Assembly (NCBI GenBank): GCA_001574975.1
Contig: KQ965733.1
Span: 978,992-1,042,991, forward strand
Direction of reading: 5' to 3'
DNA: 64,000 nucleotides
Origin: Gonapodya prolifera JEL478
Taxonomy: Eukaryota > Monoblepharomycota > Monoblepharidomycetes > Monoblepharidales > Gonapodyaceae
The position numbers and the translations under genes were made by a program. The notes beneath the pieces were generated by a model. The model worked only from the letters and a program-made list of their open reading frames with translations, was not told where the DNA came from and made no database searches. Shown one piece after another: positions 10,724 through 64,000 of the stretch; position 1 is the first letter of the stretch, and each line of letters begins with the position of its first letter.

Positions 10724-10767
<44 letters not shown>

Positions 10768-11282: not shown

Positions 11283-13275
11283 TCAAAATCGCTGCTGCGC
11301 TCCCCACCCGCCCTGCCCCTGCCCCTGCGCCGTCCCAGCACCCCCCATCGTACCGCCACCTATGTGCGAATACTGCGCAATGTGCAGTCCCGACGGAAGC
11401 ATCGGCGCCGGTCCTCCCATCCCGCCTTGCACTTGTTGGGGGAAAGGGGCAGCCGGCATCGGTGGGCTCTGTGACGGCATCGACGGGCTTGTGGAGCCGT
11501 ATGGTAGAGGGTTTGGTGATGCGCCGCTGTTGGGGTAGAGGTTGGAAACACATCAATAAGGGGGAGGACAGGACCACGGAGGGCATAGACCAGAACTCAC
11601 AAGGGATTGGCAAGTCCGCTCGACTGCTGCTGGAACCCAACGACGCCGCTCTGCACTTGTGCTTGTGGCGGATACGAGCCGACAGGTCCGAACGACGGAC
11701 TCGTTTGCTGCGGGAACTGTTGTCCCATCCTGCCGATTCCGCCCATCTGTCCCATCTGTCCCATTTGTTCCGTGGGACCCATTGCGCCCATTTGTCCTGC
11801 TGAGCCCATTTGATTCATTTGCCCCATTTGTCCCATTGGATTTGTTTGTCCCATCTGACCATACTGACCGCCTCCCATCTGTCCCATCTGTCCACCCCCC
11901 ATCTGAGCCATGCCCATTTGTCCCTGACCCATCGGCCCCATCGGCCCTACTGGCCCCATCTGACCCGTTGGACCCAACGAACCCATCGAGCCCATCTGCC
12001 CCATCCCACCCATCTGCCCCACCTGCCCCAGACCCATTTGTCCACCCATCGCACCCATCTGTCCCATTTGCCCTTGCCCGTACCCGCCCATCTGGCCCAT
12101 CTGACCGCCTGTCATGAACCCCTGCTGCTGGACGTTGCCGTTGTATGCTGGTGGCGGGGAGGGTGTTGTGAACAGGTCTTTGGAGGTGGGGCGGTGGGAG
12201 GAGGGTGGTGGGTGGGTGGGTGGGTGGAAAAAAGTGGTGCCGATGTAGGGGAGTCGGAGAATGAAGAAAAGTGGTGCAGGTGTTGGGAGCCAGGGAGTGA
12301 ACAAACGTGGTGGCAGTGAAGGGGAGTGAACAAAGTGGGCAACAACGTCAGTCACGTCGAACAAACAAAGGAAGGTTTCCACCGTCAGTCAAACATCTCC
12401 CCATCTCCCCGTTTCCAACCATTTCCCCCGTTCCCCGCGTTCCCCCCATTTCCCCTTCTCTCCCCCAGCCAACCCCAACAGTCCGCAACCCCAACGTACC
12501 CAACAAATCGTCCACATCCCGCCTCGGCCTCGGCGGCGGCTCTGTCGGTGGCGGCGGTGGTCTCTGTCCCTGTGACGTTTGCTGTTGACGACCGCGATTC
12601 GAAGACGTCGACGGTGCGTTCGCCGACTGGTCCCGCAAGAGCACCTCGAGCGCGTCGTCCACCTTCCCGTTGGCATCCGTCAGAGCTCGGAGTACGCGTG
12701 CCGTGTCGGTGAAGCCCATGTCTTGGAGTTGTGCGACTTGGGATCGTAAGTGTGGCGGGATTGAGACGGCCGGTGCTTGAGGTAAGCGGCCGGCTGTGTT
12801 TTGGCGAGAGGGGAGTTTGGGTGCCGGTGTTGAGGAAGAGGTGGAGTGGAGGTTGAGGTTGGGCATGGGCCGTTCGCCGGACAGAACGGCGAGGGCTTCG
12901 ATTGGGTCTCCCCCGACGGATTCGAGGCTTTTGGGGGTTGGAAGAACAGTGGGTCGTAGAACGTGGTGACAGGGCCGTGGTATGGAAAAGTGGGGGCCAA
13001 GGTACGTGAAGAGCTCGCATGAACTCAGGCACCACGACGTCGCAACGCGGGCGATCCTCACGCTTTCAGGTTCAAGACGTCGTCCCTGTATCCCATTCTG
13101 CACGATTCAACGAAAGAGCGGCGGGGACGCGGGCGGGGCGTGCGTGAATGGAAGTGGTTCAGCCGATGTTATGGTGTGGACGGTAACCAACAGGGCAGTC
13201 TCACCTGTGCAGCGTTGCCAGCTGCGTCCCGTACTTTCTCGGATCGATGCCCAAGTCATTTCCGCCGTAGCTCAT
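11283..13275 (-). CDS. UBA-domain protein with Met-Gly-Gln low-complexity tail
   Basis: The proposed start at ATG 13275 gives MSYGGNDLGIDPRKYG, then small exons (DDVLNLKA near 13060). A UBA domain lies at about 12620-12760 (VAQLQDMGFTDTARVLRALT, then GKVDDALEVLL), with the classic M-G-F loop that binds ubiquitin. After it come Arg/Pro-rich sequence and RRDVDDLLG. The C-terminal 270 residues (12150-11283) are built from repeats of MGQ, GQMGQMG and MGGQM, ending GWGAQQRF. Such Met/Gln-rich tails are typical of prion-like or condensate-forming regions. Gts1-type ArfGAPs pair a UBA with a Gln-rich tail, but no ArfGAP zinc finger (CxxC-x16-CxxC) is found upstream before the next gene, so I do not call it one. 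Middle exon borders are uncertain, because two frames are open between 12680 and 13000. Confidence 0.55.
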
Positions 13276-35715: not shown

Positions 35716-41901
<6,186 letters not shown>

Positions 41902-57759: not shown

Positions 57760-59032
57760 TTGACCAAAGCTACCACACTTTCGAGCTTCCCCTGCGCTCC
57801 TCCCCTCTGCGTGCCGCCGCGTTGGCGATTCGGTCTCAAGGAGCTGGTATCTTCCTACAACGTTGCATCGAAAACGGTGGTTGGGACGATGCTTCGTTCG
57901 AAAGAAACCTCGATGAAGACCACACCGACTGTGATCAACAAATCACCCTCAAACAAGTACGCTGGTTCATCTCTCTTGTTCGGGATCCCCCATTGAAGTA
58001 CTTTCGTCGTCAAATGAAAGGAAATGACCAGTCGAAATGGTCATCTTGTCCAGTGGGAACAAGGCGAGGAACCCAACGATGCTCCGCCGCGGTCGGTCTC
58101 CGATATGGACAGCTCGATCACGGTTGCTGATGTGGTTCCTGGCTCTGGCCCTCTGTTGCTGGAGTTGAACGTGGATGATTTGGATCAGCTGGCACGATCA
58201 CAAAACGAAACGTCGCCGATCTGATTCCCAGGTATGATTTCATCAGTGAACGCTCATCTCGATGTGCCTAGTCATTATTTCGTTTTTCCAGTCCACATCT
58301 TCACAACTACCCTTCGAAGATACTAGAAATGATCTTTCTCCACATCTCACTGACCGTATTTTACTCCAGCCTGCAGTATGTGTGCACATCGTGGCGTCGT
58401 GTTGTCATAAACAGTGGTGTCCAATGTAACATCAACCTTCAAATCGTCAACGGGTTCGCAACGCCTCGACCAGCCGACCTCGACGAGATGAATCCGGGGT
58501 TGAACCTCGTCACCACCAAAGACCGCCCTTTTTAAGCCCACAAGAACTCGAGCGCCAGTGGATCCCAAACGACAGCGTGGACAAGCCCTTGTACCGCGTG
58601 CCGTACCACATCATCCACCTTGAGAACTAGGCGCTTGCGTCGCAGCGTTGGGATTGGGCGGATCCCAATTTCCTACTTTGGCCAGGAAAGTCCGTCGAGT
58701 GCGGGCTGGTCGCGCAGCTCGGGGTGTATTACAAGGACCCTGCACCTGGGGAATCAGCTGTGTGGACAGTTAGGGATCTGCAGGAGCTTCCCGTTCGCGC
58801 GGCCGAGAAAGAGTTTGGTCAGCGTGTTTGGGGTCGCTTGTGTGAGGTCAGCATGAATGGCTGGGGTAGACCGGAGATGGTGTTGGACGTTGTGCTTTTC
58901 TTGACGACTGCAGTTGCGATTGGGTGTATGTCCCGTTGTGATTATTATGGGTATTGTTACTGGTATGGTAATGAGGACAGGGTCACGGAAGAAGTAGTGC
59001 AGAAGGATCAGATACAGAAATACCGAAATTAA
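57760..59032 (+). pseudogene. F-box-like gene, apparently decayed
   Basis: An F-box-like motif lies at 58294-58420 (LHNYPSKILEMIFLHISL, then LQYVCTSWRRVVINSG). After it the frame is broken: TTKDRPF ends at a stop near 58533, while SPQELERQWIPNDSVDKPLY continues in another frame, as if one base had been lost. That frame meets TAG at about 58629 (HLEN-stop-ALASQRWDWADPN) and goes on to WGRPEMVLDVVLFLTTAV and a tail ending at 59032. Upstream pieces (57760-58224) also change frame. Introns could explain some shifts, but the TAG sits in conserved-looking sequence with no nearby donor. Lineage-specific F-box families often decay like this. Confidence 0.4.
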
Positions 59033-59216
59033 GGTTGTACGTTTGAGAAAAAGACAGAGAGAGGAATTTTGACGTGTTTCGCTGTTTCGAACCCAGCATT
59101 CGCAACAAAAAGGTCCTGGGAAAGGTAAGTTATCTTACTGGCAAGAAAACCAGACAGAGGACAGCACTATCAGCTTCTCTTGGCCATCAGGTACTGCTTG
59201 GAGCCTTTGAGCAAGT

Positions 59217-59335
59217 CCTCCACAGTGCTACCCAACCTAGGGGTGCTCCATGAGACCTGTGTGCTGCAGGACCATGATCATAAATGAGTGACACAAAGCA
59301 TACATAGTAGGTGTGACATAGTCTCACCTGCAGGA
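59217..59335 (+). repeat. 119-bp direct repeat, left copy
   Basis: It begins CCTCCACAGTGCTACCCAAC and ends CTCACCTGCAGGA. It matches 63882-64000 in the same orientation (CCTCCAGAGTGCTACACAAC ... CTCACCTGCAGGAA). The first about 55 and last about 13 bases align well; the middle is weaker. It marks the left limit of the accessory block. Confidence 0.65.
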
Positions 59336-59536
59336 CCACGACGCCAAACGTGGGCTGTGCCCTGCAGGGGAGAATATATATACTAGGGAACTGTTCCACG
59401 CTGTGCCACCTAAGGTGCCTCGCCTTAACAGCACTGTGGCACACACTCAGCCCCTATCCGTGCTGTGCGACACTCCACCCCTCACAGCGATGTAAGTGGC
59501 TGTCACCCAGCAGGCTGGGTGACACACAGTTGTTCA

Positions 59537-60030
59537 TGGTAGCTCTTGAGGGGGAATGTCAAGTCAAGGTCTTTCAGAACTTTTTGGCATTGGACCTGCA
59601 ACAGGGATTGGGCAAAGGAGCCATCAATCTTGTCCTTGACAACACCAGCATACACCATGCCACTAGCAAAAGGGCTTCCATAAAAGCTGAAACTGCCCAC
59701 TAAGCCAATGTGTCCCTGCACTAGATGGTCTACTGTCCCCAGCTGAACCTGTCCAAATACACCTTTGGCTACATCAAAGGATCCCACACTTGACCAGCAC
59801 GCCCTACCACCAAACAACAGCTCATTGCAGCTATCACATGTGGTCTTAACACTCTCACAAAGGAGCAGGTGAATGGAATGTTTAAACACTGTTTCCTGCA
59901 AGCCAAGCTCCCTGTCACCACTGTAGTAGCATTGGAACCATTGTTGCCCTTTGCCACACCAACGGAACCAAACAATGCAGCTGTTGCATCTGTTCCACAG
60001 CAGCCAGCAACACCGGTGGTCATTTGATAG
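59537..60030 (+). pseudogene. Remnant of a DDE (IS630/Tc1-like) transposase
   Basis: Translation gives LVLDNTSIHHATSKRASIKA, the L-V-x-D-N-x-x-x-H catalytic-Asp motif of DDE_3/IS630-Tc1 transposases. Later it gives YCPQLNLSKYTFGYIKGSHT, where active enzymes have P-x-L-N-P-x-E, so the third acidic residue is Lys here. Stop codons at 59701 and in the following sequence interrupt the frame. No N-terminal DNA-binding part is seen. It is inactive. Confidence 0.6.
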
Positions 60031-60408
60031 GACCACACATCAAAGCCTGCATCTGCTGCACAGCTAACAACCAGGGTCTGGTGAGCAGTTGGAGGCTACA
60101 CCTCTGCCAGGGCTTGTGCAAAAGCCTCTTACAAGGCCAGCAACCAGGCTGACATCGCACCCAACATTGCCAACCACGTCACGCACTTGAGGTATCCAGC
60201 AGCATGCCCAAAGCCACGCACCATGGCAAAGTTTGGCAAAGACTTGTCCTTGGACAAAGGATGCCGCGGCTGCGGCCTGCAATGAGGTTAAGGCACTGTT
60301 TGTCCAATGCAGGTTGACAGCTGTTGTCCCACCTTCACAAACATCTGGTGCAGACCGGTCTGCCAGGCAGTGCTATGAGGAGCTGATCTGAGAGCTGTCA
60401 CGTTTTTT

Positions 60409-61271
60409 ACATACCCCACCTAGACAATTACCCCCACCTTGTAGAGAGATACCCCCACTTTTGCAAATTTGATTTTTGGTTTACAGAGTAGACCATTTTT
60501 ATTTTTGCACAATTCAAAATGGTGACTTGAAATTTATAATCTGATATCCTCCATATCCAAAGTGATCACACTGTAGAAATATGGTGGCACACCTCCCCAA
60601 ACAGGAGTTTGTGTGGTAGAATGGTATGAACCACGTTGTGTCAGCCCTATGGCTATATAGGTTTTGGTGCTTAGACTACATTTGTATTACTTCCAGGGGG
60701 AGGTCCAGACAATTCAATCTTTGGGACATGACCTACCTGCAAAGTGGTCCCTGCTTGTACCAGACCACTACATTCAGACTGAACTCCCTTTTCTGAGCAC
60801 ACTTCTCAAAAATAGTAGTTTGGTCTGAACTCCCCATTTGGAGAAGGGTGCTCAGAACCAGGAGTTTGGTCTGAACTCCCGTTTTCAAGAAGGGTCAGGT
60901 GCTGTGAGTTTGGAAAAAGTTGCCACCCTTGGAATTGAACTTGGGAACAGTCTTTACATAGTGAACACATTACCAACTGCACCAGATTTAAAACTCCAGC
61001 AAACAATAGTTTAATTTGCATTTCAGTACTTACAAAATTAAATATTTTAAGAAATCAATACTCTATTTACCAATCCATGTTCAAGAAATTATTATTTTAC
61101 TTGCACATATATTTATTTCAATTGTTCTTTCAAATATATAAAATAAAATTTTGAATTTTCATTTTTCAATTTTCCATAAGCAGAAATCAATGTCACAATA
61201 ACAGAGTTCACAAGTTCTCAAACCTGGTTTGGATAAAGTGGGGGTACTTCCCTCCAAGGTGGGGGTATGTC
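60409..61271. mobile_element. Non-autonomous element with C-rich terminal inverted repeats
   Basis: The left end (60409-60463) has C-rich units TACCCCCACCTT and TACCCCCACTTT. The right end (61234-61271) is the inverse: AAAGTGGGGGTA, then AAGGTGGGGGTA. Over 37 bases about 31 agree after reverse complementing. Both outer edges read ACATACCCC. The interior is AT-rich, non-coding, contains a tRNA-like promoter and three copies of TCTGAACTCCC, and is probably a MITE-like or SINE-carrying element. Confidence 0.55.
60931..60984 (-). repeat. tRNA-like pol III promoter (box A and box B), SINE or tRNA relic
   Basis: On the minus strand, TGGTGCAGTTGGT (60984-60972) fits box A and AGTTCAATTCC (around 60940-60930) fits box B. 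The boxes are about 32 bases apart as in tRNAs. No pairable acceptor stem was found, so it is not a working tRNA. It could be the head of a SINE running left across the three TCTGAACTCCC repeats. Confidence 0.4.
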
Positions 61272-61293
61272 AGCCATGGGACAAGAGCTCAGC

Positions 61294-61655
61294 TGTTGGG
61301 CCAACAAGATCCAAAGGAGAGACAAGCAGGTGTGGATCAGGCACTTTGCAAAGAAGAGGAGGCAGGAGAGTTGAGCAACACTGTACATGCAAGCCAAGGA
61401 GGCTGCCATGCATCTCCTGCTGCCACCCTTTGCCCACCTGGTGCTGTTCCTGTTGGAGTCCAAGAGGAGGTACTACACAATCCAGGGAGCCAAGGAGGTT
61501 GTTTGGTCTGTGTGCAATGGAGCAGATGACTGGGCATCCCTGCCATCAATGGCATGGAGCTTGCACTCCTCACAGGACACAGTGGCATTCCACTCTCACT
61601 GCAGCTGTTGCCTGGCTGATGTGGATGGCATGCAGTGCCAAGGATGGCAGTGCTG
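61294..61655 (+). other. CpG-free transposon-like remnant
   Basis: The frame starting near 61300 gives pieces such as WANKIQRRDKQVWIRHFAKK and then AKEAAMHLLLPPFAHLVLFL and LESKRRYYTIQGAKEVVWSV with interrupting stops. It reads like a decayed element protein and may continue the sequence left of 60400 across the inserted element. No family is recognised. Confidence 0.3.
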
Positions 61656-61698
61656 ATGTCCAGATCCTGAAGGCGGGGATGGCACAGCACAACATCAT

Positions 61699-62259
61699 CA
61701 CCAAATGAAGTATGGCCTTCAGCAAGGGGACCATGATGGATGGATTCTTTTAAACAGCCGATCTATATCTCTCCTAACTCCAACGCAGCAAAATGTTGCA
61801 TTGGCGCTTGGATTTGTTTCCCATATTCCCAATCTTTCAAGTGCATACATTTTGCAAATCTCTTCAGCCACACTAGGTTCCCTGATTGGTAGCAATACAT
61901 GAACTCTTTTGCAAGTGCAGCTACCAAGCATAACAATGTGGTCTTCTACATCAGGGGGCCATGCTCACACAACTGGTGGAGCAGTTGTGAATGGAGCAAT
62001 AATGGGCACAACTGGCACTCCTTCGCAGGGACAGTACAGCCTCATGTACTTTTCAAGTGGCGGGAGTTATACATGTAATGGGCAAGATGTATCGCCAGGA
62101 AAGGTATCTGTCACTTCTGGCTCACAAAGAAACCATTATCACGTAACTGATACCCAGGGCTCTCACTCTCACAGTGTCCCGCTTGGGGGCCAGGGGGAAC
62201 CAATCGACATCAGACCGCTTACGTTTTGTGTAAATGTATTTCTGTTTCTGGGATACTGA
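61699..62259 (+). pseudogene. Virus-like tail-fibre/collar-like structural protein with one nonsense codon
   Basis: One continuous frame reads DHDGWILLNSRSISLLTPTQ, VSHIPNLSS, then TGA at 61900-61902, and resumes in the same frame with LQVQLPSITMW, SGGHAHTTGGAVVNG, SQRNHYHVTDTQGSHSHSV and IDIRPLTFCVNVFLFLGY. The H-x-G-W-x-x-x-x-G/S-R opening, L-P-N step, His-rich strands and the closing R-P-L-T-x-x-V-N-x-F-x-x-L-G are the pattern of phage tail-collar/fibre-like proteins also found in large DNA viruses and polinton-like viruses. The TGA is one transition away from CGA. This suggests an endogenous viral gene, recently broken. The source virus is not determined. Confidence 0.6.
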
Positions 62260-62271
62260 GTGAATTCTGCA

Positions 62272-63248
62272 TCACTTTTTGGGATGAAGCATTTTTGCAT
62301 GAGAGTGCAAACACTTTATCATGTAATACCCATTGCTCCCACACTCGTGAGCATTGAACTTGTCCTTGTTTCCCACATACTTTTTGCACATGTCTCCATC
62401 CACATTGTACCCCAATTTAGTGAGAAGAAACAGATACTCCATCATCTCATCCGTCTTGGTGCCCATTTTGCTGGCTCCCGTGATCCTGTTTTGAGCTGCT
62501 TCAATCTTGGCTCTATTGGCGCGCTCTTCTGCTGTTGTTGAGCGTGAGCAGACTTGTTTCATATGTTCGAAACCAAGACGTGGATAGTATGTAAGGGCGG
62601 ATGATAGGGCATCCAGCTCTATAAAATCTAGCCCAATACTCACACTGGTGCGTTCAATTATATCAAACAGTAGTACAGCGCCATGGCAGTCTCTTCCAGG
62701 AGACTTGGGCTTTGAGCAAATGACTTGAACATGCACTCCTGGTTTGGCCAAAACCAATAGGTGGGTTTTAAAGTTGCCTGCCCTACAAACTTGCATGCAG
62801 CAAAGGCAATGGGATCAACTACAAGGGCTGACGTCTTCTTTCTGGTCCCCAGATGAGATGCGAGGGACGCTTCCTTTGCTCAGTTGGCTACAACATAATA
62901 GAGCCCTACAAAGAAGTCGCTTTGAGTGCAAACATATTCAATGTATGATTTGGAAACCAACTGCTCTCCTTCAAGAGTTGTATTTCTGCAGACACTTGTA
63001 TCTATAAGTGTATTTACTAGATCGGCAAACTGTATTTGCCTGTGGAGAATTGGGTCAGTATTTGAACCTCCAATAGTGAGTTCGTATCCAAAGAGTGTTT
63101 CCTCATCTTCAAAGTGCCTATAATAGGCCATGATGAGTGCATCCTCTTGAAGCTGCTTTACTGCAGACGAGCGTGGTTTCTCAGACCTTTTGAGTTGTTT
63201 TGTTTTGCACTGTTGTTGCTGAGAGTGATGAGTCAACATCTGTGCCAT
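62272..63248 (-). pseudogene. GNAT-like acetyltransferase gene, broken by a stop and a frameshift
   Basis: The first part from 63248 (MAQMLTHHSQQQQCKTKQLK, ILHRQIQFADLVNTLIDTSV, YIEYVCTQSDFFVGLYYVVA) meets TGA at about 62880. The same frame then goes on (AKEASLASHLGTRKKTSALV) to a stop near 62660. A second frame (62796-62272) picks up with VQVICSKPKSPGRDCHGAVL, SIGLDFIELDALSSALTYYP and RLGFEHMKQV. The A-x-x-Y-Y-x-x-L-G-F end is the GNAT acetyl-CoA fold signature, as in GNAT-like genes of large DNA viruses. It lies head to tail with the tail-fibre-like gene, convergent with 12 bp between stops. Confidence 0.45.
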
Positions 63249-63304
63249 CTGGTGTCAGAAATAACAACTGAGACGGTCATAAGAACTGGAACAAATGACG
63301 AGAG

Positions 63305-63658
63305 ATGGGGCTCCCAAAACACATTCCCCACTCTACCAACCCATGTGAAATGTGCACAAATCTTTCTCTATGTTCACACACTTGCATCTACGTGTTTGGC
63401 TCTGCTGCATTGTTTGCTCTGGCAATTGTATTTTGCACGATTGCAGTTTCTCAAATGAACTCTACTCCAACCCCCACTTCCACCATGCCTCCAACCATTC
63501 CATCTCAGATCGATTCTGAACCAGTGCCTCTCGAAACGCCACTCTTGGGAACTGTACCGTTTGGAAGCCCAGAAACATGTCAAACAGAAGCAACAGAGTA
63601 CTCAAAAGTGCCCCTATCTCCATTGAATGGACTGGATGGAGTTAGCTCAAAGAATTGA
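63305..63658 (+). CDS. Small predicted membrane protein, unknown
   Basis: A 117-codon frame has one hydrophobic span (YVFGSAALFALAIVFCTIAV) followed by a Pro/Thr/Ser-rich tail (NSTPTPTSTMPPTIPSQIDS ... LNGLDGVSSKN). It is in the virus-like block and is the only frame there without a visible break. No family is recognised. The start is uncertain, as Met 63305 is not in a notable context. Confidence 0.35.
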   Translation: MGLPKHIPHSTNPCEMCTNLSLCSHTCIYVFGSAALFALAIVFCTIAVSQMNSTPTPTSTMPPTIPSQIDSEPVPLETPLLGTVPFGSPETCQTEATEYSKVPLSPLNGLDGVSSKN

Positions 63659-63881
63659 GACTTTGGCGTGGTGGTGGCTTGCTTGATTGGGGCATCTGTT
63701 TGCTTTTCATTTGGCGTTGGATTGACAATCGAGCTTTGGGCAAAGTCCAGAGAGCTGCATAGAGTGGGGACAATCATTCAAGTGTAGAAATACAAATATA
63801 TTTATTTGGAGCCAGCTTTTCAAACCTCTCATGTGCATTCCCAAAAATCCACACAGGACCCCACCCCAACAATCCACAAAA

Positions 63882-64000
63882 CCTCCAGAGTGCTACACAA
63901 CCTAGGTGAGCTGCACGAGCCTGTAAACTGCAGGAACGTGTATATATATGATCAAACATACATAATATCTTGTAGCGCACACAGAACTCACCTGCAGGAA
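63882..64000 (+). repeat. 119-bp direct repeat, right copy (reaches window edge)
   Basis: Partner of 59217-59335 in the same orientation, spaced 4665 bp. It ends at or beyond the window edge, so its full length is unknown. Confidence 0.65.

Follow-up and report, generated by a model that had tools for sequence, protein, structure and literature searches.

Reading frames at the contig end

The window (the whole stretch of DNA analysed here, 64,000 bases long) covers positions 978992 to 1042991 of contig C3 in a genome of 47.6 Mb and 207 contigs. Its last position, 64000, is also the last position of that contig. The locus described below therefore lies at the very end of C3, and the search for virus genes farther right that a preliminary description of this DNA had proposed is impossible. 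Near this end is a 2.2-kb stretch (61690 to 63890, hereafter the core) that is poor in CpG, apparently single copy, and occupied by broken reading frames. By DNA search, the sole candidate in the genome for 61699 to 63248 was the stretch itself, and the rest of the core had no other copy among the matches listed (best 40 of 130 candidates scored).

Three broken frames can be read in the core. On the plus strand, a tail-like frame (61705 to 62259) is divided by a single in-frame TGA (61900 to 61902) into a first part (61705 to 61902) and a second, His-rich part of 118 codons (61903 to 62259), and it is rich in H-x-H and ends in the closing motif that the preliminary description had given. The minus strand carries the two pieces of a frame that had been called GNAT-like, an upper piece closed by TGA (62880 to 63248) and a lower piece in another reading frame (62272 to 62796). 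One TGA and one frame change are needed to join them, as described, but we dropped the GNAT identity: Pfam and NCBIfam gave neither a family nor an acetyltransferase for either piece, nor did PDB sequences yield an acetyltransferase for the lower one. To these we add a third frame on the plus strand (63305 to 63787), with two hydrophobic stretches as judged by eye and one in-frame TGA (63656 to 63658) before its closing stop.

The first tail part had no match in Pfam or PHROGs and the third frame had none in Pfam, and the second tail part, like the lower minus-strand piece, found only itself when the genome was searched with it as a protein. Structure predictions reached mean pLDDT values of 34 and 42 (the latter for the lower minus-strand piece), which is too poor for a fold search. 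A frame of 118 codons is ordinary for DNA of this composition, as an open run of at least that length arose in 492 of 1,000 dinucleotide shuffles of 61690 to 63890; a minus-strand run of 180 codons is rarer, with runs of at least 180 codons in 24 of 1,000 such shuffles. TGA is the breaking stop in each of the three frames. Of the 152 stop triplets counted on the two strands of the core, however, 89 are TGA, so that three TGAs in three frames are not unusual; TGA is also the stop that loss of CpG produces directly. The possibility that TGA is read here as a sense codon was rejected, since TGA is the commonest stop triplet and CpG decay accounts for the stops.

Repeats and transposon debris around the core

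The transposon debris that had been placed next to the frames is indeed there, in the form of repeats and a transposase relic to their left. The CpG-poor stretch is bordered on the left by an interspersed repeat copy of about 299 bp (59226 to 59524, plus strand), most of whose listed full-length copies are 91 to 97% identical and a few 82 to 86% (best 40 of 130 candidates scored). The relic is the DDE_3 part (59482 to 59691, plus strand) of a frame at 59350 to 59703 and matches PF13358 with an E value of 2.4e-5 and 24.6 bits, below the Pfam cut-off of 28.6 bits.

Farther to the right, DNA search identified a segment common to the window and C7:217597-218397, split into a CpG-decayed left half (60029 to 60396, plus strand, 82% identical) and a right half (61285 to 61689, plus strand, 79% identical) that adjoins the core. 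Between the halves lies a MITE-like element of 888 bp (60396 to 61283, plus strand), with an inverted repeat at its ends (60429 to 60461 and 61235 to 61267; 88%) and with partial copies elsewhere, including C56 and C80, at 83 to 94%. The C7 copy is without this element and the two flanking matches meet there, from which it follows that the element was inserted in the window copy.

On the other side of the core, the contig breaks off inside a young interspersed repeat found by DNA search, of which the first 110 bp (63891 to 64000, plus strand) are present. This repeat had 369 first-look candidates, and among the best 40 scored the matches were mostly 97 to 99% identical, with one at 93% and one at 83%. 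One fetched copy lies, by eye, between matching 5-bp ends and the other fetched copies do not, and for that reason we do not confidently call it an LTR. The repeat at 59226 to 59524 is a diverged relative. Both of these related families have many near-identical copies, several of them near contig ends, and both have probably been active recently.

Elsewhere in the window, AROM-type shikimate domains occupy two adjoining frames (35716 to 40402). AROM is present in other eukaryotes too, and the domains are compatible with a fungal host without being proof of one. The earlier account of decayed genes in a fungal chromosome is thereby upheld in part, in that these domains fit a fungus and host repeats bound the region, and we regard 59226 to 64000 as probably a repeat-rich compartment, heterochromatic in appearance, in which a probably fungal contig ends.

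CpG depletion

In the 18 windows of 500 bp that start at or after 59226, CpG o/e has a mean of 0.25 and a maximum of 0.46, against a mean of 1.00 in the 235 windows that start left of 58700, where the lowest value is 0.38 at 11751; two windows between 58700 and 59226 belong to neither group. TpG and CpA are raised in the CpG-poor stretch, and the parts of the core up to 63780 have values of 0.37 to 0.39. Apart from the locus, a short-repeat region of the window (11751 to 12500) is also CpG-poor, with 0.38 to 0.47 in the two windows of 500 bp that begin at 11751 and 12001, and a run of 44 C residues is found at 10724 to 10767.

The C7 copy is embedded in DNA with a CpG o/e of 1.03 to 1.14, and measured against this undecayed copy the duplicated segment that adjoins the core has lost CpG and gained TpG and CpA. 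Among the 98 CpGs of the C7 copy, 81 read TG or CA in the window copy and 7 have stayed CG, while the other 10 are divided equally between gaps and other states (5 each); the converted sites are spread over the left half (40 of 50) and the right half (41 of 48). Transitions, both C>T and G>A, account for 83 of the 87 changes at CpG sites, and 30 of 573 aligned positions changed at non-CpG sites. The comparison covers the adjoining C7-related segment, as the core has no second copy among the matches listed, and the repeat at 59226 was unusable as an undecayed reference, two other copies that we looked at being CpG-poor as well (0.18). Cytosine-5 methylase family matches in the genome number two on C14, both with a stop inside the frame, and one on C12.

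These counts bear on the age of the insertion, which had been taken as young on account of its few breaks. With 91 of 98 CpGs gone from the neighbouring duplicated segment (5 of them as gaps), the stops at this locus measure time poorly, and a young age does not follow from there being few of them.

Comparison of the His-rich frame with phage proteins

A search of PHROGs with the 118-codon frame returned five families with E values of 0.07 to 0.62, four of them tail families: phrog_295 (tail fiber, 0.069), phrog_19618 (tail collar, 0.1), two more at 0.35 and 0.62, and one head family at 0.21. Controls consisting of nine shuffles and the reversed sequence gave one match, to a family of unknown function, and no tail family. 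The Pfam scan did not detect the PF07484 collar domain in this frame, and no match exceeded 12.1 bits; a fibre repeat of 14 residues scored best (E = 0.23). A six-frame genome search with phrog_295 gave one match, on C16, and did not list the tail-like frame.

Against phages, tblastn matched 6 of 50,697 records, the best (E = 1) being the protein QCW20496.1 of Flavobacterium phage FPSV-S8, which is annotated as hypothetical and whose relatives are annotated as tail or tail-collar. Pairwise, the two are 26% identical over the aligned stretch, with E = 8e-6 for that single comparison, and by eye they have in common the order L-P, G-x-H-x-H, G-x-H-x-H-S, a G-rich stretch, and I-D-I-x-P. Two H-x-H blocks are likewise shared, by eye, with a relative of the FPSV-S8 protein, XAI96525.1 of Microcystis phage Mae-JY35, which is annotated as tail collar domain-containing. 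A profile of three sequences, the FPSV-S8 protein and two relatives, gave the real frame 20.6 bits against 13.1 for the best of 2,000 shuffles, and it contains the protein that had been picked as best match of the 50,697-record search. In profiles without that protein, shuffles scored at least as high as the real frame in 1,152 of 2,000 cases with two sequences, in 64 of 2,000 with seven, and in 0 of 2,000 with eight (E = 8e-4), all profile sequences having been reached via the FPSV-S8 match. When the two relatives, the Microcystis and Serratia proteins, were searched singly, the real frame lay outside the best four of each.

Together these comparisons are suggestive of a weak sequence resemblance between the 118-codon frame and phage tail-collar proteins in their C-terminal region, with an outcome that depends on the profile. 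The frame differs from such proteins in that PF07484 is undetected in it and that its identity to the FPSV-S8 protein is 26%. The earlier label "tail-fibre/collar-like" survives as a weak likeness to tail families, while the collar domain itself remains uncalled.

No relative of the second tail part or of the lower minus-strand piece was confirmed among viral contigs. Two motif patterns found one and zero stretches, the single stretch being an unrelated protein by eye. Among the viral contigs a positive control failed, as an NCLDV-type capsid gave 1 pattern match when used alone and 96 as a two-row capsid alignment, none of them confirmed, and the silence of these contigs therefore says little on eukaryotic viruses. 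The same capsid had no match in phages. The bacterial and archaeal genome collection gave 74 pattern matches with none confirmed, no relative was confirmed in plasmids, and the lower minus-strand piece had one match in phages, at an E value of 7; single-sequence searches of prokaryotes, phages, and plasmids reach close relatives only. A motif match in Prochlorococcus was set aside as chance, its frame reading, in our own judgement, as a short-chain dehydrogenase.

Virus-type genes elsewhere in the genome

A whole-genome search with PF04451 gave two matches and none on C3. Both correspond to intact NCLDV-type capsid genes, one of 410 aa on C176 and one of 405 aa on C52, which match PF16903 and PF04451 (E down to 8e-51) and solved NCLDV capsids in the PDB, the PBCV-1 capsid among them. 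The A32-type ATPase (PF04665) had one match in the genome, at C13:10551-10895 (E = 6e-6 when searched as one protein and 0.003 by six-frame search), and none on C3. The protein-primed B-family polymerase (DNA_pol_B_2, PF03175) had no match in the whole genome at E <= 0.01, C3 included; many PLVs are without this polymerase.

Contig C176 (1 to 34303) is 34.3 kb long, has a GC content of 0.39 to 0.43, and carries intact virus-like genes. Matches on it include OTU, a ResIII helicase, lipase_3, and GH18 (two matches, one passing the cut-off and the other falling just short of it), along with Prim-Pol below the cut-off. There is also a frame of 1,557 codons, fibre-like by eye, and 69-bp tandem repeats at its 3' end. 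On C52, a contig of 307 kb, the capsid gene (154901 to 156121) encodes a protein 38% identical to the C176 capsid, and its neighbour gene and the neighbour of the C176 capsid seem, by eye, to have a C-terminal motif in common. At C18:426634-427307 the DNA is 78% identical to C176, with a possible HNH gene by eye, and the next frame is placed as the C176 capsid neighbour is. The sole PF07484 match in the genome is a bacterial-type collar-domain frame at C98:142984-143154 (E = 5.9e-26), which has a signal-peptide-like start by eye and is a possible case of horizontal gene transfer. We considered this gene as a parent of the tail-like frame and rejected it for lack of a match (tblastn lowest E, 7.6).

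Six window frames compared by tblastn with ten stretches of C176, C52, C98, C13, and C18 gave a lowest E value of 0.096, over 20 columns in the third frame. By tblastx, the region from 59000 to 64000 gave against eight of these stretches a lowest E value of 0.022, over 31 codons in the C7-related segment, outside the core. The other viral loci have a CpG o/e of 0.78 to 1.11, unlike the locus at 59226 to 64000. The capsid genes and the A32-type frame make infection of the host by large DNA viruses credible, but the locus at 61690 to 63890 is not tied to these viruses. The general idea of virus genes in the host genome is thus borne out by giant-virus-type genes on other contigs, with none shown at the locus.

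Discussion

The locus at the end of this contig is a real object but of an ordinary kind, a relic decayed at its CpGs and bounded by repeats, whose tail-like signature is weak. It is similar to CpG-decayed transposon relics in its CpG o/e (0.03 to 0.4), its raised TpG and CpA, and its nested insertions, and it is unlike them in having a 2.2-kb core without a second copy among the matches listed.

On balance, we lean toward the view that a CpG-decayed repeat compartment, its CpG loss most likely due to methylation, holds an apparently single-copy 2.2-kb relic of a foreign insertion, one gene of which was probably of the tail-collar type. The core (61690 to 63890) would then be what is left of two or three foreign genes, one of them probably for a protein with a His-rich domain of this type at its end. 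The pattern of substitutions suggests that methylation of the CpGs of 59226 to 64000, followed by deamination to TpG and CpA, is the most likely cause of their loss, and the core itself may have decayed in the same CpG-specific way, a process that would have left broken frames with TGA stops.

The strongest competitor, which we judge somewhat improbable yet worth taking seriously, is that the frames arose by chance or are anonymous leftovers of a transposon or of a lineage-specific fungal gene and that the tail motif is an effect of composition. About half of the shuffles contain a frame of at least the length of the tail-like frame, no Pfam or NCBIfam match rises above its cut-off, the outcome of the profile tests varies with the member sequences, and a transposase relic lies nearby. 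However, the shuffles and the reversed sequence yielded no tail family, the 180-codon run is longer than that in 976 of 1,000 shuffles, and the lack of a second listed copy of the core is unlike a transposon family. A chimeric assembly or contamination of the contig end could be imagined, since the contig stops within a repeat for which there are 369 candidate copies, but we regard either as very improbable in light of the absence of unresolved bases from 58500 to 64000, the low CpG that continues through repeats and core alike, and the host repeats on both flanks of the core.

Two further possibilities name a donor and are sub-cases of the foreign-insertion view that we prefer, and their probabilities overlap with it. 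We consider it unlikely that the core comes from an endogenous large DNA virus (Nucleocytoviricota), the origin proposed in the preliminary description, and is a fragment now decaying in methylated chromatin. The same genome does contain two intact NCLDV-type capsid genes, an A32-type ATPase frame, and a C18 stretch related to the virus-like contig C176, and tail-like domains and small membrane proteins are common as virus cargo. Yet the window frames match none of the ten virus-like stretches, the best tblastx match falls in the C7-related segment, C3 is without a capsid, A32, or DNA_pol_B_2 match, the other viral loci have a higher CpG o/e, and the likeness by profile is weak and varies with the profile set. 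A bacterial or phage-type gene, horizontally transferred and then broken, is a still more doubtful source; phage proteins give the best matches in sequence and the genome has one bacterial-type collar frame on C98, but none of the 74 pattern matches in bacterial and archaeal genomes was confirmed, nothing in phages was better than an E value of 1, and plasmids gave no confirmed relative.

Large DNA viruses have been described as little documented in the fungal kingdom (PMC5294986, PMC9894930). NCLDV genes have been reported in Gonapodya, Rhizophagus, and Allomyces (PMC5294986), and putative giant fungal viruses have been reported from crustal fluids (PMC9894930); we found no literature joining Nucleocytoviricota, Chytridiomycota, and endogenous viral elements. 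The locus resembles the endogenous Nucleocytoviricota fragments reported in early-diverging fungi (PMC5294986) in having possibly foreign genes amid the DNA of a probable fungus, and it is unlike them in that it has no hallmark gene, the hallmarks of this genome being on other contigs. In Amoebidium, methylation has been reported to enable giant-virus endogenization, with insertions lying in hypermethylated blocks (PMC11244446). CpG methylation is suspected at our locus as well, which, unlike those insertions, is known from its sequence alone and is only putatively viral.

Where CpGs vanish as fast as they do here, counts of stop codons are misleading as a clock for insertions. The locus also provides a clue to its surroundings, as the genome around it holds capsid genes of the large-DNA-virus type. 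We consider it quite unlikely, though worth stating, that this host combines retained virus fragments, with intact capsids and normal CpG, and an older viral relic in methylated, CpG-decaying repeats. If this were true, giant-virus DNA would meet two fates in one fungal genome, being either retained or erased by CpG deamination.
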